Of a stretch of DNA of 34,283 nt, positions 5,223-22,760 are shown piece by piece. The stretch is from contig JALVIB010000030.1 in NCBI GenBank assembly GCA_027028725.1, positions 1 through 34,283 of the forward strand. Reading direction: 5' to 3'. The first letter of the stretch is position 1, and each line of letters begins with the position of its first letter. This DNA comes from Candidatus Altimarinota bacterium (GTDB lineage Bacteria; Patescibacteriota; Gracilibacteria; UBA4473). The notes beneath the pieces were generated by a model. The model had not been told where the DNA came from and ran no database searches. It was given only the letters and a program-made list of their open reading frames with translations. A program made the translations under genes and the position numbers.

Positions 5223-5568
5223 TTAATACAATGCAAGTAGTTAAACGAATTTCGCGGGATTTTGTTACAAAAAAACTTAGATTACGAGTTCACAAGATTA
5301 CAATAAATTCCCGCGAAAATTTACCATCTTCGTCATTGCGAGGAGCGAAGTATGAGCGACGCGGCAATCTACTTCCTTATTTTCAAATCCCCCTTAATCC
5401 CCCTTTCTCAAGGGGGAAATTTAAGGAATTATTTAAAAATCCCGCGAAATCTTCGCAAAAAATGTAGGGACGCCCTTTATAGGCGTCCAAAAAAAATGAA
5501 TTCCAAATTATCGGGCGACCACAAGGAATCGCCCCTACGAAAAATTTCGCGGGATTTTCCAACAGGGG

Positions 5569-5643
5569 TGGTGGAGCCAAGGAGAATCGAACTCCTATCT
5601 CTGCATTGTCAAGATGAGTATTTTACCATTAAACTATGACCCC
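5569..5643 (-). tRNA. tRNA with atypical anticodon arm, anticodon unresolved
   Basis: Read on the minus strand: acceptor GGGGTCA pairs with TGGCTCC, followed by A and an encoded CCA. The D-arm is GTTT..AAAT with a GG loop, and the T-arm AGGAG/CTCCT has loop TTCGATT. The molecule is 72 nt without CCA. The anticodon arm is abnormal: CTCAT can pair with ATG-AG only if one C is bulged, giving loop CTTGACA (anticodon UGA with C37, but no long variable arm as in tRNA-Ser). Reading the loop as TTGACAA gives GAC (Val), but then the stem is mostly mismatched. A 14-base inverted copy of this arm lies at 5698-5711. The gene may be degenerate. Confidence 0.7.
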
Positions 5644-5665
5644 GACTCCACCAGCGCGGAGTATA

Positions 5666-5697
5666 TAAAAAAAGCTCGCCACAGCAAGCTCTTTTTA
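5666..5697. terminator. Bidirectional hairpin terminator
   Basis: AGCTCGC and GCAAGCT pair (seven pairs including one G-U) around a four-base loop, with an A-run on one side and a T-run on the other, so it can terminate transcription in both directions. It overlaps a possible tRNA promoter on the minus strand (TTGCTG, complement of 5682-5687, 16 bases, TATACT, complement of 5660-5665), so both roles are possible. Confidence 0.5.
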
Positions 5698-6280
5698 TTG
5701 ACAATGCAGAGTGGGCCATAACTTTGGCACTCATCACTGGGATAATACCCATTCTTGTTTTATTTGTCAAAAAAAATCCCGCGAAAATTTACCATATTCG
5801 TCATTGCGAGGAGCGAGGTATGAGCGACGCGGCAATCTACTTCCTTATTTTCAAATCCCCCTTAATCCCCCTTTCTCAAGAGGAAAAACTAAGGAATTAC
5901 AAAAAAATCCCGCGAAATCTTCGCAAAAAATGTAGGGACGCCCTTTATGGGCGTCCAAAAAAAGTTAGATTACAAGTTCACGAGTTTACGAGTTCACAAG
6001 ATTACAATAAATTCCCGCGAAAATTTACCATCTTCGTCATTGCGAGGAGCGAGGTATGAGCGACGCGGCAATCTACTTCCTTATTTTCAAATCCCCCTTA
6101 ATCCCCCTTTCTCAAGAGGAAAAACTAAGGAATTACAATAAATTCCCGCGAAAATTTACCATCTTCGTCATTGCGAGGAGCGAAGTATGAGCGACGCGGC
6201 AATCTACTTCCTTATTTTCAAATCCCCCTTAATCTCTTTCTCAAGGGGGAAAACTAAGGAATTATTTTGAAAATTTCGCG

Positions 6281-8598: not shown

Positions 8599-8636
8599 GC
8601 ACTAAAAATCCCGCGAAATTTTCAAAAAGAAAAAAC

Positions 8637-8682
8637 AAGTCCGGACTTAACACAGGATAAAAAGCATTTAAAGTCCGGACTT
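8637..8682. repeat. Paired AAGTCCGGACTT palindromes
   Basis: Perfect 12-bp palindromes at 8637-8648 and 8671-8682, 22 bases apart. They belong to the same family as 465-492. Confidence 0.8.
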
Positions 8683-8711
8683 AAGTTTTTTCACAGAAAA
8701 TTTCGCGGGAT

Positions 8712-10973: not shown

Positions 10974-11767
10974 GAAAAAACATCACAAATTTTCAATTTC
11001 CTCTGCAAAATCTGCTCGGCGCGTTTTTTGGTGAAATTGAGATCGTCGTCCGTGGCAATTTGAAAACTTTTTTTCGCCACCGCCTTGCGGGGCACAGCGG
11101 GATTTTTTTCTACCTCACCCCCGCCCTCTCCTGCTAGAAGAGGGAGTAAAGGAGAATCCTTTAAGTCCGGATTTTGGTCGGAAATCCCCCCAACCCACTT
11201 TATCAAGGGGGAGTTATCGGTAAGTAAATCTGTTAAAAAATAAACTTTCAACTGCGTGCCGGCGAGTTTTTGTAAAATTTGGCGCGTTCTTTTTTCCGCG
11301 AAAATTCCTTCGAGAAAAATCAGCGAATCCACGCGCCAAGTTTTGGCTCGGCGGATGTGTTTCCGTGCTAAACGGCGAAATTCTACGGAGTCGGCTAATC
11401 CTTCGTTCGCCATTTCTCGTAAAATCTGTGTTTCCAAAATGGAAAATTTCGCGGATTTTTCCGCACGCGGATTTTTTTGTCTGTAAGCGAAATTTTGTTT
11501 TGCAAGTTTATTGCAAAAACTCCGCGCATCCTTATTTTTTCTATCAAAAACAATTCCAACTCGTCCGAACTTAGTTTTTTCTTCAACAATTTTTTTAACT
11601 AACAGAAACCAGAAATCTTTTTCTGAAATAGCGTCTTTTTTATCAAAATCCCGCGATTTATTCTCCGAAGCTTTAGCGCAGGAGGAAATTTTTATCCAAA
11701 TTTTTTCCGCCGGATAATTTTTCGCCAAGGCGATTATTCCGAAGTCCGTTCCAACGAATTTTTTCAT
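10967..11767 (-). CDS. Unknown protein, 266 aa, with several in-frame repeat insertions
   Basis: I do not recognise the family. The N-terminus MKKFVGTDFGIIALAK is followed by alternating helices and strands. The middle is basic (FDRKNKDARSF, RRLARKHIRRAKTWRVDS). At least three dispersed-repeat peptides interrupt it: SCAKASENKS at about residues 29-38 (30-bp insert), LLPLLAGEGGGEVE near 213-226 (a C-run/G-run hairpin repeat), and PAVPRKA near 225-231 (21-bp insert). The stop codon comes from a further 13-bp insert. Ancestral length was perhaps 235-240. It is transcribed against the flanking gmk and pilus genes. No transmembrane segment is evident. It could be tolerated debris or a real cytoplasmic protein with tolerant loops. 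Confidence 0.6.
   Translation of the reverse strand: MKKFVGTDFGIIALAKNYPAEKIWIKISSCAKASENKSRDFDKKDAISEKDFWFLLVKKIVEEKTKFGRVGIVFDRKNKDARSFCNKLAKQNFAYRQKNPRAEKSAKFSILETQILREMANEGLADSVEFRRLARKHIRRAKTWRVDSLIFLEGIFAEKRTRQILQKLAGTQLKVYFLTDLLTDNSPLIKWVGGISDQNPDLKDSPLLPLLAGEGGGEVEKNPAVPRKAVAKKSFQIATDDDLNFTKKRAEQILQRKLKICDVFSV
11076..11096. repeat. 21-bp in-frame insert in an iterated motif
   Basis: TTTTC and GCGGGATTTT, the halves of a motif, are separated by 21 bp with core CCGCCTTGCGGGGC. The insert adds seven codons to the unknown gene on the minus strand. Near-identical inserts are at 12946, 19508 and 22191. Confidence 0.85.
11655..11684. repeat. 30-bp in-frame insert in an iterated motif
   Basis: AAAATCCCGC and GAAATTTT flank a 30-bp sequence containing TCTCCGAAGCTTTAGCGCAG. 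Removing it restores the frame K-I-S-R-D-F and an exact motif. It adds the peptide SCAKASENKS to the unknown protein. Confidence 0.8.
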
Positions 11768-12902: not shown

Positions 12903-14087
12903 ATGAATTTGAATTTTAAAATCTCTCCCAAGAATAAAATCCCGCTGCGCCCCGCAAGGCGGCGGCGAAAAATTATTTACGGGGTGACTGATCGGTCAAA
13001 TGATTCTTTGTGGCAAAAAATAAACGACTTTTTAATCGATAATTCACCAATTACCAAGAAAGAAAAAATGGTTTTTTTTAATTCCCTTAAACTTTTAGTC
13101 ACTTCGGGAGTTAATTTTACCAAAGCCATTCACATGATGGCGGAGCGGAGCAAAAATGAGCATTTGAAACGAATTTTACATACCATTGAATACGATATGT
13201 TGAACTCGGGGATGAGATTTTCTGAAGCAATGGCAAAATATCCGCGAGTTTTTAGTGTTTCAGAAATGAAAATGATTTATTCTGGAGAAATCGCGGGGCG
13301 GTTAGAAGAAGTTTTGGAAGCAGTAGCAACGCGAATTCAGAAAAATATCGAAATGGAAATTCGCGTGAAATCGGCGATGATGTATCCGATTACGGTTTTT
13401 ATCGCGATAATTTTGGCGGGAATAGTGGTGATGCTTTTTGTCGTGCCAAAATTTGAAGCAATGTTCGCGAGTTTTGGGAGTGATTTGCCGATTGCGACCA
13501 AAATTATGATTGGAATGTCGCGCTTTTTTCAAGACTACTGGTGGTTTTTGTTATTAATTTTAATTAGTGCTTGGGTAATTTTCCAAAACTGGAAAAAAAG
13601 CGAAGACGGAAAATATCAATGGGACGAGTTTTTATTGAATTTGCCGGGGATTGGTCCATTAATTCGCGATATTCAAACTGCAAAAATCGCGGGAAATTTT
13701 TCCACTCTCTTGGAGTCTGGAATTCCGATTGCCAAAGCGATTCATGTTTTGGGAGAAATTATTGATAACGATGTAATTTCGCAGGTTTTACTGCAAATTG
13801 AACACGAAGTTCGCAAAGGAAAACAAGTTCACGAAGCTTTTGCAGAACACCCAGAACTAGACCCGATTCTGGCAGAAGTGATAGAAATTGGGGAACAATC
13901 GGGAGCAATTCCGCAAGTTTTGCATAAAGTTGGAATGCAGTATGATTTAGAAGTTGACGCGCAGTTGAAAAATTTATCGGCGATGATTGAGCCACTGGTG
14001 ATTTTAATTGTAGGGCTGGCGGTCACCTTTATGGCGTTGGCGATTATGACACCAATTATGAAAATGCAATCGCTTTTTGCCGGCTAA
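12903..14087 (+). CDS. pilC: PilC/GspF-family platform protein, 394 aa
   Basis: Polytopic inner-membrane protein that couples the assembly ATPase to pilin insertion. Two T2SSF domains are visible (about residues 55-180 and 255-380), each with the conserved FxxxLxxLxxSGxxxxxA pattern, and hydrophobic segments near 165-190, 210-230 and 365-390. Its N-terminus is extended by a 21-bp repeat insert giving RPARRRR at about residues 15-21. No PilB, PilT or prepilin peptidase gene lies in the window, so the operon depends on genes elsewhere. Start 12 bases after the PilO-like stop. Confidence 0.92.
   Translation: MNLNFKISPKNKIPLRPARRRRKIIYGVTDRSNDSLWQKINDFLIDNSPITKKEKMVFFNSLKLLVTSGVNFTKAIHMMAERSKNEHLKRILHTIEYDMLNSGMRFSEAMAKYPRVFSVSEMKMIYSGEIAGRLEEVLEAVATRIQKNIEMEIRVKSAMMYPITVFIAIILAGIVVMLFVVPKFEAMFASFGSDLPIATKIMIGMSRFFQDYWWFLLLILISAWVIFQNWKKSEDGKYQWDEFLLNLPGIGPLIRDIQTAKIAGNFSTLLESGIPIAKAIHVLGEIIDNDVISQVLLQIEHEVRKGKQVHEAFAEHPELDPILAEVIEIGEQSGAIPQVLHKVGMQYDLEVDAQLKNLSAMIEPLVILIVGLAVTFMALAIMTPIMKMQSLFAG
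12946..12966. repeat. 21-bp in-frame insert in an iterated motif (pilC)
   Basis: AAAATCCCGC is parted from GAAAAATT by TGCGCCCCGCAAGGCGGCG plus GC. Removal would restore an exact motif and the peptide KIPRKI. The insert is the inverted form of those at 11076, 19508 and 22191, with one base difference. Confidence 0.85.
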
Positions 14088-14155: not shown

Positions 14156-14785
14156 ATGAGTAGTAATTCTAAAAAACAAACTCAAAATAAATTTCCCCCT
14201 GATAAGGGGGTCAGGGGGTTAAATTGTGGATTTACTTTGATTGAATTATTGGTAACAATGTCAATTATCGCGATTTTATTCGCGGTGGGAATGCCGGCGT
14301 TTTCAGATTTTCAAAAAACTTCTCGACTCAAAGAATCCGCGGAAACTTTGGAAACAGCTTTTGGCGAAGCTTTTTCGAGCGCGCGTTCCCGACCGGAATG
14401 TTTTGTGTTTTCGGGATCAGGGAATTCTTTGAAATTAGAAAGTTTTGATAAAACTTGCGAAGGAAATGCAAAAAATTCCCGCGAAATTTCTCTAAACCCT
14501 GGAGTGGAAATTTCTGAAAATTTTAAGATTAAATTCAAACCACCATTTGGTGATTTGGAGCTTGTTGAAGGAGATCTTGAAGATGAAAGTGATGAATTAA
14601 AAATAAAACTGTGTAATAAAGATTGTGTGAATTTTGTGGTTTATCAAAAATCGGGATTGTTGACGAGAAAATCCCGCGAAATTTCGGGGGAGAGTGTTTC
14701 CAAGTCCGGACTTAAAGTCCTGAGTTTTGTCTCAAGTCCGGACTTAGAAAAACACTCGGGAAATTCTAACCACTCAAGACAATGA
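14156..14785 (+). CDS. Type IV (pseudo)prepilin, GspH/FimT-like, 209 aa
   Basis: Leader of 25 residues ending NCG, cleavage before FTLIELLVTM with Glu5 present, then the hydrophobic pilin helix (residues 26-47) and a globular domain with three Cys. The leader residues KFPPDKGVRGLN are encoded by the GC-rich repeat CCCCCTGATAAGGGGG-TCAGGGGG, making it longer than the usual 5-15. Near the C-terminus two AAGTCCGGACTT palindromes (14702, 14733) are translated as KSGLK and SSPDL. Three motif cores precede or lie within it. It overlaps the next gene by four bases (ATGA). Confidence 0.85.
   Translation: MSSNSKKQTQNKFPPDKGVRGLNCGFTLIELLVTMSIIAILFAVGMPAFSDFQKTSRLKESAETLETAFGEAFSSARSRPECFVFSGSGNSLKLESFDKTCEGNAKNSREISLNPGVEISENFKIKFKPPFGDLELVEGDLEDESDELKIKLCNKDCVNFVVYQKSGLLTRKSREISGESVSKSGLKVLSFVSSPDLEKHSGNSNHSRQ
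14702..14744. repeat. Paired AAGTCCGGACTT palindromes inside a prepilin gene
   Basis: Copies at 14702-14713 and 14733-14744 in the C-terminal coding region. They are read in frame and do not interrupt the gene. Confidence 0.8.
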
Positions 14786-15258
14786 GAACGAAACAAAAAG
14801 GATTTGCTTTAATTGAAGTGATTGTTTCCATTGTGATTTTGTCGCTGGTTTTGGTAGCTGCGGTGGGACTTTTGTATTCCGTGGGACAAGCGGTAGAAAC
14901 CAACCGCGACCGCTTAACCGCGACTTATTTAGCGCAGGAGTGTTTGGAACTAGTCCGTAACGCCCGCGATACTTCTTGGAAAAACTACGAGCCATGGGAT
15001 TGCGCATGGAAAGAAACAACGCCTTGTGAGGGAAAACAGATTGTAAACCTGATTAAACAAAATCCAGTAATGATAAATGAAGAAAGTACAAAATTTTCGC
15101 GGGATTTTCAGGTAGAATCAATTGAGAATGTTTTGCAAGCACAAAGAAGCAGAACCTTATCGAATTCCGAAGAAGTGAAAATAACTTGCACCGTCTCGTG
15201 GGGCGAGAATTCCAAACTATCCATTTCGGAAATACTTACTAACTGGCGGAAAAGATGA
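14782..15258 (+). CDS. Type IV (pseudo)prepilin, GspI/PilV-like, 158 aa
   Basis: Canonical short leader MRTKQKG, cleavage before FALIEVIVSIV with Glu5, a hydrophobic helix, then ATYLAQECLELVRNARDTSW, a segment typical of minor pseudopilins of the PilV/GspI type. ATGA overlaps with both neighbours suggest tight translational coupling in a minor-pilin operon. One motif core at 15097 is read as FSRDF. Confidence 0.87.
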   Translation: MRTKQKGFALIEVIVSIVILSLVLVAAVGLLYSVGQAVETNRDRLTATYLAQECLELVRNARDTSWKNYEPWDCAWKETTPCEGKQIVNLIKQNPVMINEESTKFSRDFQVESIENVLQAQRSRTLSNSEEVKITCTVSWGENSKLSISEILTNWRKR

Positions 15259-15914
15259 GAAAAATTTGGGAAAAAGTTTTTGGTAAAATCCCCCTCAATC
15301 CCCCTTTAAAGAAAGGGGGAGGCTCGCAGCAGGTGAAACAGGATGAAAAAAATAAAAAATTTTCCTTTTTCATCCCCCTTTTTTCAAAGGGGGACAAGAA
15401 GCAGGGAATAAGGCAAAGGGGGATTTTAATCAGAAATTTCGCGGGATTTTCCCTCATCGAATTGCTGGTGGCAATGACCATTGGTGGCGTGATTTTGACC
15501 GCAGTGATGACTAGTTATGTGGCAATGACCAAGACGAGTTTGCGACTGGATTTGGCGCGCCAGATGCAGAAAGAAACAAATTTCGCGGTAATTCGAATGG
15601 TGGATAAAATTCGGAATTATCCGATTAAAAATTGTGATGAGAAAAAATTAGTTTTGCAAAACAGACAAGGACATGAAATTACTTTTAAATTTTTGTTAGA
15701 AAATAAACAACAATTAACTCTCAATGAACAACCGCTTTTTTCGGAAAATATCGCGGTCGATGACGGACATTTTGATTGTAAAGGACTTGATGATGAAGAA
15801 AATCCCGCGAAAATTCAGCCCCGCGTGCAGATTTATCTCCAAGTTTCCGCGAAAAAAGATCCCGAAATCACCAACCGCGTGCAGACGACTATTTCTTCAC
15901 GAATTTTTAACTAA
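15255..15914 (+). CDS. Type IV (pseudo)prepilin, GspJ/PilW-like, with 64-residue leader, 219 aa
   Basis: The mature protein begins at FSLIELLVAMTIGG with Glu5 and a hydrophobic helix. The reading frame opens at the ATGA overlap (15255), giving a 64-residue leader instead of 5-25, because a C-run/G-run repeat (15284-15428) sits in frame between MRKIWEKVFGKI and RNFAG. An internal non-ATG start nearer the cleavage site cannot be excluded. The iterated motif at 15439 itself encodes the cleavage site (NFAG/FS). Placement between PilV-like and PilX-like genes supports the GspJ/PilW role. Confidence 0.83.
   Translation: MRKIWEKVFGKIPLNPPLKKGGGSQQVKQDEKNKKFSFFIPLFSKGDKKQGIRQRGILIRNFAGFSLIELLVAMTIGGVILTAVMTSYVAMTKTSLRLDLARQMQKETNFAVIRMVDKIRNYPIKNCDEKKLVLQNRQGHEITFKFLLENKQQLTLNEQPLFSENIAVDDGHFDCKGLDDEENPAKIQPRVQIYLQVSAKKDPEITNRVQTTISSRIFN
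15284..15428. repeat. C-run/G-run hairpin repeat inside a prepilin leader
   Basis: Contains AATCCCCCTCAATCCCCC with GAAAGGGGGAGG, then A-rich spacer and CATCCCCC...AAAGGGGGAC. It is the same family as the tandem repeat at 1-405 (shared CAGCA, GAAACAGG and TTTTCCTTTT pieces). It is open in the prepilin frame. Confidence 0.7.
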
Positions 15915-15967: not shown

Positions 15968-16939
15968 ATGAATAAATTAAAAAAACGAATACGAAACATC
16001 TTCCCCCTGACAAGGGGGCGAGGGGGTTTGAAAAACAACGGAATGGTAATCCTCTTGCCGACAATTATTTTATCAGGACTGATTTTGGCGGTAGGACTTG
16101 GTTTGTCGCGGGTTTTGATGACGGAACTAGAATTTTCCGCGGATTTGTTGTTTTCCGAAAAGGCGTATTTCGCGGCGGAATCTGGAGTAGAAAAATCTCT
16201 TTTGGCGCTCAAAGATAAACCGCTTAACTATGTTTCCGAATCGGATAAAGAAGTGGGAACAGGCGCGACTTATGATTTGGAAATTGCTAACTCGGTAAAA
16301 GAATTTCCGTTCGTTTTAGACGAAAACGAAACTATTAAATTCCGCTTGGGAGTGGATACTAATGAGAGTTTCGCGGGATATTCCGTGCGACCGATTACAA
16401 GTTTCAAAGTAGATAATTTAGTGGGAATAAAAAGAAATCTGCACTGGAAAATCCTTTGTTTAGTTGATAGCGGAGGAAATCCCGCCCTTCAACGAAGTTC
16501 AGGGCAAGCCCATCGGCAGAGCTCAGGGCAAGCGAAAAAAACGGTAGCCTTGTCAGGGACAGGAGATAATTTTACCAAAGGAAATTATGATGATGGAGAG
16601 AATGAGATTACAACTGAAACTATAGTGAACTTTTTAGGTAGATATAATTCAGAGGGAAACCCTTGTTTTATGTCGTTATCTAATTTTTCTGAGATAAATG
16701 AAGGAAATTCTAGTCGAACCAACCCTTCAACATTTAACTCACAACAAACTAATAATTCAAAAATTCGCGGGATTTTTAAGCCAATAATTCCCGAAACAAT
16801 CGCTCCAGCAAAAGTGAAAATCACCGCCACGGGAAAAAGTTTTTCCCGCGAAAAAATTGTTTCCTTTGATTATTGGCAAAAGAATCTATCCGCGGTTTAT
16901 GATTTGGGGTTGTATTATACGAAAGATTTAACAGAGTAG
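15968..16939 (+). CDS. PilX/GspK-like pseudopilin, 323 aa
   Basis: A 25-residue leader ending NNG is followed by MVILLPTIILSGLILAVGL and the segment FSEKAYFAAESGVEKSLLAL typical of PilX/GspK. There is no Glu at position 5, as in tip pseudopilins of the GspK type. The leader part FPLTRGRGGL is a translated GC-rich repeat. Residues about 173-188 (LQRSSGQAHRQSSGQA) are a 48-bp insertion that splits a motif. Last gene of the pilus operon. It converges on the U32 gene with a gap of 19 bases that holds only the iterated motif. Confidence 0.8.
   Translation: MNKLKKRIRNIFPLTRGRGGLKNNGMVILLPTIILSGLILAVGLGLSRVLMTELEFSADLLFSEKAYFAAESGVEKSLLALKDKPLNYVSESDKEVGTGATYDLEIANSVKEFPFVLDENETIKFRLGVDTNESFAGYSVRPITSFKVDNLVGIKRNLHWKILCLVDSGGNPALQRSSGQAHRQSSGQAKKTVALSGTGDNFTKGNYDDGENEITTETIVNFLGRYNSEGNPCFMSLSNFSEINEGNSSRTNPSTFNSQQTNNSKIRGIFKPIIPETIAPAKVKITATGKSFSREKIVSFDYWQKNLSAVYDLGLYYTKDLTE
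16486..16533. repeat. 48-bp in-frame insert in an iterated motif (two 24-bp half-repeats)
   Basis: AAATCCCGC (to 16485) and GAAAAAA (from 16534) flank two imperfect 24-bp copies ending CTCAGGGCAAGC / TTCAGGGCAAGC. Removal restores the frame G-N-P-A-K-K-T and an exact motif. It adds the repetitive peptide SSGQA-HRQ-SSGQA. Confidence 0.85.
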
Positions 16940-19236: not shown

Positions 19237-19265
19237 TTTTGAATATTTCTCAATTCCGCTATATT
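19237..19265 (+). promoter_or_regulatory. Candidate promoter of the rhomboid gene
   Basis: TTTTGA (19237-19242), 17 bases, TATATT (19260-19265). The ATG at 19273 begins seven bases after the -10 box, so the transcript would start at or next to the start codon (leaderless). A motif core lies at 19227. Confidence 0.4.
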
Positions 19266-19272
19266 GCCAAAG

Positions 19273-19836
19273 ATGAATTCTGAATATCTGCAAAAATACG
19301 CGCGAAATTTTCCCATCACGACAATTCTTTTGCTGATTAATCTGGTTATTTTCTTTCATAATCAAGTCAGTTATCCCTTTGTGGCGATGCCCGGAGTGAT
19401 TAATTTAAACTCTTTTTTGGCAAACTTTTCACACATTGGGCTAATGCACTTTGGATTTAATATGCTGGTTTTATGGCAAATTTCCCCACTCATTGAAGTA
19501 AAATTTCGCCACCGCCTTGCGGGGCGCAGCGGGATTTTCTATGCGGGAATAATTTTGGCAATTGCGAGTTTGATAACTTTGGGGGTGGCGAAATTTTCTA
19601 ATTATCCGACGCTGGGTTTTTCGGGAATTGGACTGGGAATGATGATTTTCGCGGGATTTTTGTACTGGAAAAATAAACATATTGCCAAACAACTTCTCGG
19701 CTGGGCAGTAGCAAATATTGTATTGGGATTGACTCCAGGGATTTCTTTTGCCGGACATTTCATCGGTGCTTTGGCTGGAGCTTTAATTTTTGGGGTTATT
19801 TATTTTGTTTTTCCCAAAAACGAAAAATCATTCTAA
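19273..19836 (+). CDS. Rhomboid-family intramembrane serine protease, 187 aa
   Basis: Cleaves membrane proteins within or near the bilayer. The HxxxN motif (MHFGFNM) is in the second helix, the catalytic Ser117 in GFSGIG, and the catalytic His162 in GHFIGALAG. About six hydrophobic segments are visible. I chose the ATG at 19273 rather than an upstream TTG (19264) because the candidate -10 box overlaps the TTG. A 21-bp insert adds HRLAGRS at about residues 80-86, in the loop between two helices, where it replaces K-F-R-G-I-F by a longer loop without touching the active site. Confidence 0.88.
   Translation: MNSEYLQKYARNFPITTILLLINLVIFFHNQVSYPFVAMPGVINLNSFLANFSHIGLMHFGFNMLVLWQISPLIEVKFRHRLAGRSGIFYAGIILAIASLITLGVAKFSNYPTLGFSGIGLGMMIFAGFLYWKNKHIAKQLLGWAVANIVLGLTPGISFAGHFIGALAGALIFGVIYFVFPKNEKSF
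19508..19528. repeat. 21-bp in-frame insert in an iterated motif (rhomboid gene)
   Basis: AAATTTC and GCGGGATTTT flank the insert with core CCGCCTTGCGGGGC. Removing it leaves an exact motif and an open frame. Confidence 0.87.
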
Positions 19837-21767: not shown

Positions 21768-22760
21768 TTACAAAAAGATATTAAAAGCGTAACCGATAAT
21801 AATTATTCCCAAAGTTACAATTCCAAAAAATATCGCGAGAAGTTGCCATTTCAGAACTTTTTTGAGAATAAACGCTTCCGGTAAAGAAATCCCAACAATC
21901 GCCATCATCAAAGCCAAAGCCGTCCCCAGCGGAACTCCTTTCGCGACTAATGACTGAATAATCGGAATAACTCCACTGGCGTTGGAATACAGCGGAACGG
22001 CGAGTAAAACCGCGAGCGGAACTCCCCACCAACCGGCTTTTTGTAGATATTTTTCAAAAAATCCCTGCGGGACAAAGCCGTGAATAAATCCTCCCAAAGC
22101 GACTCCGCCCAGCACATACCACATAATTTTTCGCGTGATTTCAAAAGCTTCCGCTGATATTTTTTTCCAGACTTGGCGAAACAAAATTTCGCCACCGCCT
22201 TGCGGGGCGCAGCGGGATTTTGCTTTTTTGTGTTCAGAATGAACTTTCCAGACAAAATCTGCCACATATTTTTCTAAATTTAGTTTTCCCATAATAAATC
22301 CGCCCAACATTCCGATGAAAATTCCCGCGAAAATATACGCCAAAGTTATTTTCAAGCCGAACATTCCGATGAATAAGGCAATCGCGACTTCGTTAATCAG
22401 TGGCGAAGTTATCAAAAACGCAAAAGTCACGCCGAGCGGAATCCGCGCTTCGATAAATCCCATAAATAATGGAATCGACGAACACGAACAAAACGGCGTA
22501 ATCGCCCCAAAAATTGTCGCGAGAAAATAATCTAGTCCGTAAAATTTGTGCTTGGAGAGAAAATCTCGGAGTTTTTCAATCGGCAAATAATACCGCATCA
22601 AACTCATTAAGTGTGTGATGATAATTATCAGGAACAAAATTTTCAGCGAATCGTAGATGAAAAAATTCAACGCCTCAGCGAGATGCGTCCCTTTTTCGAG
22701 AGCAAACAGGTCAAAAGTTAGGTAATTCGCCAGCCATTCAAACGGATAAAAGATATTCAT
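21768..22760 (-). CDS. ArsP-like permease (DUF318 family), 330 aa
   Basis: Polytopic membrane protein with eight or so hydrophobic segments and the family motif TPFCSCSSIPLFMGF, plus a second GVIPIIQSLVAKGVP half-repeat. Members include organoarsenical exporters (ArsP); most are uncharacterised. It follows the CDF exporter gene by 18 bases on the same strand, suggesting an operon concerned with metal or metalloid export. A 21-bp insert adds CAPQGGG in the cytoplasmic loop near residue 190 (KSRCAPQGGGEILF). The gap to the convergent pilin-LamG gene is 15 bases and is nothing but the iterated motif. Confidence 0.88.
   Translation of the reverse strand: MNIFYPFEWLANYLTFDLFALEKGTHLAEALNFFIYDSLKILFLIIIITHLMSLMRYYLPIEKLRDFLSKHKFYGLDYFLATIFGAITPFCSCSSIPLFMGFIEARIPLGVTFAFLITSPLINEVAIALFIGMFGLKITLAYIFAGIFIGMLGGFIMGKLNLEKYVADFVWKVHSEHKKAKSRCAPQGGGEILFRQVWKKISAEAFEITRKIMWYVLGGVALGGFIHGFVPQGFFEKYLQKAGWWGVPLAVLLAVPLYSNASGVIPIIQSLVAKGVPLGTALALMMAIVGISLPEAFILKKVLKWQLLAIFFGIVTLGIIIIGYAFNIFL
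22191..22211. repeat. 21-bp in-frame insert in an iterated motif (permease gene)
   Basis: AAAATTTC and GCGGGATTTT flank the insert, which matches 19508-19528 exactly by eye. Without it the protein reads KSREIL. Confidence 0.87.

Follow-up and report, generated by a model that had tools for sequence, protein, structure and literature searches.

The window analysed here, a stretch of 34,283 nucleotides from a Candidatus Altimarinota genome, contains type IV pilus genes. Its gene order runs from a T2SSF/PilC-like gene through three N_methyl pilin genes to an open reading frame (ORF) of 323 aa, and of 19 relatives from the same family, 16 have an ORF similar to the latter. An earlier note on this DNA had called the product PilX-like. 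This name is positional only; a Pfam search of the ORF itself (15968–16939) returned no family. Within the ORF lies an in-frame insert of 48 bp that is composed of two direct 24-nt units with a spacing of 24 and 18 of 24 identical positions (75%). The features are as follows, with the unit family designated family A.

15968 to 16939, plus strand: host ORF of 323 aa without a Pfam match, pilin-like (called "PilX-like" from its position)
16477 to 16484, plus strand: left part of the split motif, AAATCCCG
16485 to 16508, plus strand: family A unit 1, CCCTTCAACGAAGTTCAGGGCAAG, 24 bp, 8 codons; an identical unit lies on contig C17
16509 to 16532, plus strand: family A unit 2, CCCATCGGCAGAGCTCAGGGCAAG, 24 bp, 8 codons
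16533 to 16541, plus strand: right part of the split motif, CGAAAAAAA

Two 24-bp units sitting in frame inside a motif had been described from the sequence before, and both points were confirmed. The copies occupy 16485–16508 and 16509–16532, each unit contributes 8 codons to the peptide ...NP-ALQRSSGQ-AHRQSSGQ-AKK..., and the flanks AAATCCCG and CGAAAAAAA, when joined, restore one copy of the motif TCCCGCGAAA that is split by the 48 bp. In the best ortholog alignment of the ORF, with relative G015, a gap of 16 aa lies opposite the insert. Two landmarks could be found in 12 orthologs, where they are 5–10 residues apart, versus 27 here. A conserved SSGQA segment in orthologs that lack the motif, named in the earlier note as a refuting observation, was looked for in 16 family orthologs and was absent from all of them, so the insertion reading was not refuted.

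The interrupted motif belongs to a hyperabundant class of words. TCCCGCGAAA is present in 1,851 copies (933 forward, 918 reverse) in the genome of 1,041,106 bases, i.e., at a density of one per about 560 bp, compared with a single copy of a reversed control; 18 same-family genomes contain 0–16 copies and 12 same-class genomes contain at most 19. Relatives nearly lack the word, which by itself is uptake-sequence- or HIP1-like. The consensus AAAA-TCCCGCGA-AAWTTTT was derived from 680 sites within a sample of 360 kb, which includes the window and covers about a third of the genome. This consensus is merely near-palindromic, with a palindromic CGCG core and flanks that are not. The window itself holds 31 sites of CCCGCGAAAA.

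When 113 motif sites were aligned to G015 orthologs, 100 of them (88.5%) had no gap nearby, compared with 94.7% of random positions, which corresponds to gaps near 11.5% of the motif sites versus 5.3%. Identity to the G015 orthologs was 44% at motif codons and 58% elsewhere. As judged from these alignments, most copies of the word originate through base substitution in variable regions, which is also how uptake sequences arise. Because motif sites are mostly ungapped in orthologs, the inserted units would have entered motif copies that already existed. By analogy we hypothesize that the motif could serve as a DNA-uptake word. A ComEC domain was found in the genome (E = 7.8e-50), but 10 of the 14 control genomes also gave a match in this search, which makes it weak evidence for competence. 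Natural competence has been demonstrated in Saccharibacteria (PMC10633639); a search of the open-licence PMC literature for uptake sequences together with Patescibacteria gave no match.

Genome-wide pattern searches combined with reading of the flanks gave 19 family A units at 14 loci. The earlier note had proposed looking for the unit alone and in longer arrays, and both exist: ten loci are singles (among them C17, Fmt, PGI, an RNase J-like gene and TsaD), three are dimers (C30 and C6 twice) and one, in C60, is a trimer. Insert length is always 24n bp, up to 72, and all 14 loci lie in open frames; by inspection, the unit has four stop-free reading frames. The joined flanks score 12–14 of 14 motif positions, with at least 13 at 12 of the 14 loci, versus 2.2% of random 24-bp windows that reach 13 and 7.8% that reach 12. 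At the weakest loci, C79 and C6:32828, the score is 12 of 14, the level met by 7.8% of random windows. Relative to the motif, ten loci are forward and four reverse. A further match on C82 without motif flanks was left out as chance. The nested sequence TTCAGGGCAAGC occurs five times in the genome and its reversed control not at all; this, together with the 14 loci with 24n inserts in the motif, argues that the nesting is not due to chance. No nested family A units were found among 59 relatives, and a 29-nt family A pattern occurs elsewhere only in one Anaerolineae and one Acidobacteria MAG, in both cases outside the motif. Since the units alone fold only into weak hairpins, a hairpin-recognising mechanism is unproven for family A.

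Furthermore, a second family surfaced among left halves of the motif that had no right half. Its unit, CTGYGCCCCGCAAGGCGGTGG, comprises 21 bp and is unrelated to family A; we refer to it as family B. Exact copies of a 17-nt core of this unit number 76 in the genome, whereas 59 relatives contain none. Every one of the 35 copies sampled is located in the motif when one mismatch is allowed, and 30 match it exactly; of random intervals, 295 of 4000 (7.4%) pass with at most one mismatch and 32 of 4000 (0.8%) exactly. No exception to the motif location was met among the tested sites of family B (35) and family A (14). In a scan of the spacing between motif halves, repeated inserts stand out only at 21 and 24n. 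Four family B units in the motif were located in the window:

11077 to 11097, minus strand: family B unit in motif
12945 to 12965, plus strand: family B unit in motif, close to where the PilC/T2SSF gene starts
19509 to 19529, minus strand: family B unit in motif, within the rhomboid gene 19264–19836 and in frame with it (RHRLAGRS)
22192 to 22212, minus strand: family B unit in motif, inside an open frame of 331 codons

A wider pattern gave 37 family B copies in the sampled third of the genome, and these fall into three registers, TCCCG/CGAAA (19), TCCCGCG/AAA (15) and TTTCGCG/GGA (3), in which the slash marks the unit. Unit subtype and register are linked: CTGC goes with TCCCG/CG and CTGT with TCCCGCG/A (Fisher p = 0.0004), which could mean that units spread along with motif halves and speaks against the insertion reading. 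One motif direction accounts for 34 of the 37 copies. ORFs contain 29 of the 37, compared with 65% of intact motifs. The unit can fold into an 8-bp stem with one bulge (−8.7 kcal/mol including flanks), with a z of only −1.2, and by inspection all six reading frames are stop-free. We looked at both families for a GTAG or CGTC tag at the unit ends, for target-site duplication and for long terminal inverted repeats; there was no tag, the only possible duplication was 2 bp of ambiguous origin (GC or CG), and no long terminal inverted repeat was seen.

Empty counterparts of the inserts were found in other proteins as well. A 7-aa gap was seen in the ortholog alignment of ORF q176, and the insert of an ABC-F protein faces a 7-aa gap in the solved homolog YbiT. 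Solved homologs of PGI have a 7-aa gap opposite its RRRLAGHS insert, those of Fmt a 9-aa gap and those of TsaD a 10-aa gap. ABC-F, Fmt, PGI, TsaD and the pilin-like ORF thus carry in-frame inserts that their orthologs lack; at some family B sites the ortholog alignments are ungapped or messy. We also considered that the motif halves might be part of the element. This was rejected because the ortholog gaps equal the unit length or exceed it by 1–2 residues, which places the halves outside the inserted piece. The PGI gene (G000:C87) carries one family A insert, the family B-type peptides HRLAGHS, RRRLAGHS and STALRGTAR, and a peptide of another dispersed repeat, PHPLLEGEGAIR. In TsaD, segments other than the family A insert are also extra relative to solved homologs, e.g., PHPTPLLEGEGAIR adjoining NPAKF, which is a translation of the motif.

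How arrays of units arise can be addressed by comparing their members. From the two units in the window, the earlier note had suggested that inserted units duplicate in place. Exact 24-bp multiples do exist, and GGCAGGC is common to both units of the dimer at C6:27341, as would be expected from slippage or unequal exchange producing arrays of one to three. However, units from different arrays are on average as similar (17.9/24) as units of one array (18.2/24; shuffle p = 0.70). The E-value and shuffle controls take sites as independent, although the copies of a family share descent. Unit 1 of the window matches the C17 single at every position, yet shares only 18 of 24 positions with its own neighbour. 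Of the four arrays, three have a unit of the TCGGC...CTCAG type in second place, and none has one in first place (chance about 0.05, hand count). Because of these identities and positions, in-place duplication found no support and appears very improbable to us. Arrays rather look like separately derived units that were joined, or like a dimer copied as a block, and repeated insertion or dimer-block copying is favoured over local slippage.

The location of the units, their fixed lengths, their specificity for the motif and the empty sites in orthologs are direct observations. We consider it probable, if by no means certain, that the insert in the pilin-like ORF represents a REP-like mini-repeat of 24 bp in dimeric form, inserted at the CG/CG centre of a pre-existing motif copy (AAAATCCCGCGAAAWTTTT) without detectable target-site duplication, and that family B uses the same site. 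Insertion at this centre would be site-specific and carried out by a putative nuclease or transposase. At least two unrelated families, A (24 bp, one to three units) and B (21 bp), would share the landing site, and arrays would grow by repeated insertion or dimer copying rather than by slippage. An insertion into an ORF would add 8n (A) or 7 (B) residues and would be tolerated because the units are multiples of three and have several stop-free frames. We may further speculate, but only tentatively, that this is a motif-addressed system in which an uptake-like word acts as landing pad for frame-neutral 21/24-bp mini-elements that extend conserved proteins by 7 or 8n residues, with a dedicated putative enzyme acting at the CG/CG centre.

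Alternatively, conversion between motif copies could spread the units, a filled copy overwriting an empty one with about nine motif bases per side as homology. The donor DNA would perhaps be taken up from siblings, and no transposase would be needed after a few founders. Two unrelated families that occur only in the motif and without duplication would fit such a process, as would the link between family B register and subtype, the 34 of 37 family B copies in one motif orientation, and the presence of ComEC and type IV pilus genes. Homology of about 9 bp per side is, however, short for RecA, and at least five founder arrangements would be required (A forward, A reverse and B in three registers), each of which would itself still have to be inserted into a motif. 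Weighing these points, we regard conversion as rather unlikely. IS200/IS605-type insertion proceeds without duplication and at a short target, so the enzyme might also be of this kind, namely a RAYT-like Y1 transposase on which A and B would depend as non-autonomous REPs, with single-strand transposition targeting the motif. The sole Y1_Tnp/RAYT-like gene that we found (C87:7241–7480) has an HFH motif that looks intact and, downstream of it, a tyrosine, and single-strand Y1/HUH transposition would agree with the absent duplication and the short target (for the IS200/IS605-type family, see PMC2817692). In contrast, the palindromes that flank this gene, GCGCGGTCACGTGACCGCGCCTAC and GTAAGCGCGACGGCGCCGTCGCGCCTAC, belong to another, GTAG-type family, which is never found in the motif (0 of 19), and A and B carry no GTAG tag. 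Mobilisation by this enzyme hence seems quite improbable, and we have not assigned the gene to A or B, since its own flanking palindromes differ from them and avoid the motif. The GTAG-type palindromes lie mainly outside ORFs (3 of 19 inside). Those at L047:1417–1446, 1751–1788 and 2044–2071 (G000:C87) flank the RAYT-like gene, with one in frame inside its ORF.

Insertion at the motif as proposed here has partial parallels in known systems. Conserved proteins that contain repeats inserted in frame have been described from Rickettsia (PMC2229807) and, with REPs as inserts, from several genomes (PMC3733652). Rickettsia palindromic elements (RPEs) and other protein-coding palindromes resemble the present units as short in-frame repeats in conserved housekeeping proteins that are apparently tolerated (PMC2229807; PMC3733652), but RPEs measure 105–146 bp (PMC2229807) versus 21 bp or 24n up to 72 here, and the units here are confined to one hyperabundant motif. 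REP-like RPE-4 and RPE-6 exist, too (PMC3733652). REPs are GC-rich imperfect palindromes of 20–40 bp; with REP/RAYT systems the units share small size, many copies and also dimers, and perhaps the palindromic form, and intragenic and dimer REP inserts have been described (PMC3733652; PMC2817692). They differ in that A and B carry no GTAG/CGTC tag, in that the RAYT-like gene is flanked by a different palindrome, where a REP would flank its RAYT gene in inverted orientation, and in that REPs are mainly extragenic, whereas A (14/14) and B (29/37) lie in open frames. REPs nested in target repeats, i.e., insertion inside another repeated sequence, are found with T. roseum GTAG-23, A. variabilis GTAG-15 and H. 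neapolitanus CGTC-1, and T. roseum has hundreds of REP target copies (PMC3733652). Their target is an ordinary palindrome, whereas the target here is a 10-mer with a direction that is as dense as an uptake sequence, lies mostly within genes and is common to two unrelated insert families. A MITE would have terminal inverted repeats and a target-site duplication; for A and B, an ambiguous 2 bp and no long terminal inverted repeats were seen.

Words of such abundance have been described as uptake sequences and as HIP1 (PMC4390886). DNA uptake sequences are lineage-specific words of about 9–12 nt that occur far above chance, about once per kb, on both strands. At the sequence level, the motif resembles DUS (Neisseria), USS (Haemophilus) and cyanobacterial HIP1 in density, in equal strand use (933/918) and in an origin largely by substitution in genes. 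HIP1 is a palindrome with a cognate methyltransferase; the consensus of the motif is near-palindromic, as the flanks of its CGCG core are not palindromic. In the open-licence literature we found no report of such a hyperabundant word in such a genome and none of unit insertion into DUS or HIP1, and open-licence PMC yielded no paper with the family A or B unit sequences. Fixed-length, frame-neutral units confined to an uptake-like word thus are apparently new, as no report was found in the open-licence literature. Hyperabundant uptake-like motifs and mobile mini-repeats, usually separate subjects, here meet at one site. Should an enzyme drive the insertion, it would be a machine for small inserts that is addressed by sequence and yields products with an intact reading frame. 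The inserts also provide a natural data set on where conserved proteins tolerate 7 or 8 extra residues.

Other dispersed repeats are present in this genome. A CCCCCTT..AAGGGGG family was considered as motif-nested and rejected; 21 of 35 copies passed in a loose test but none exactly, and its own letters resemble the motif. Three pilin-like ORFs (14156–14785, 15255–15914 and 15968–16939) have a repeat of this type after the start codon and ahead of the hydrophobic pilin segment, which places it in the leader expected to be removed by cleavage. The 12-bp palindrome AAGTCCGGACTT has 46 copies in the 360-kb sample, often as close pairs and none in the motif; in the window it occurs at 464–500, 8636–8690 and 14701–14750. 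Finally, window positions 5300–6264 form a mosaic of CGTCATTGCGAGGAGCGAAG, a CGTC-type repeat, and CCCCCTT..AAGGGGG repeats, in which several blocks begin near a motif copy.
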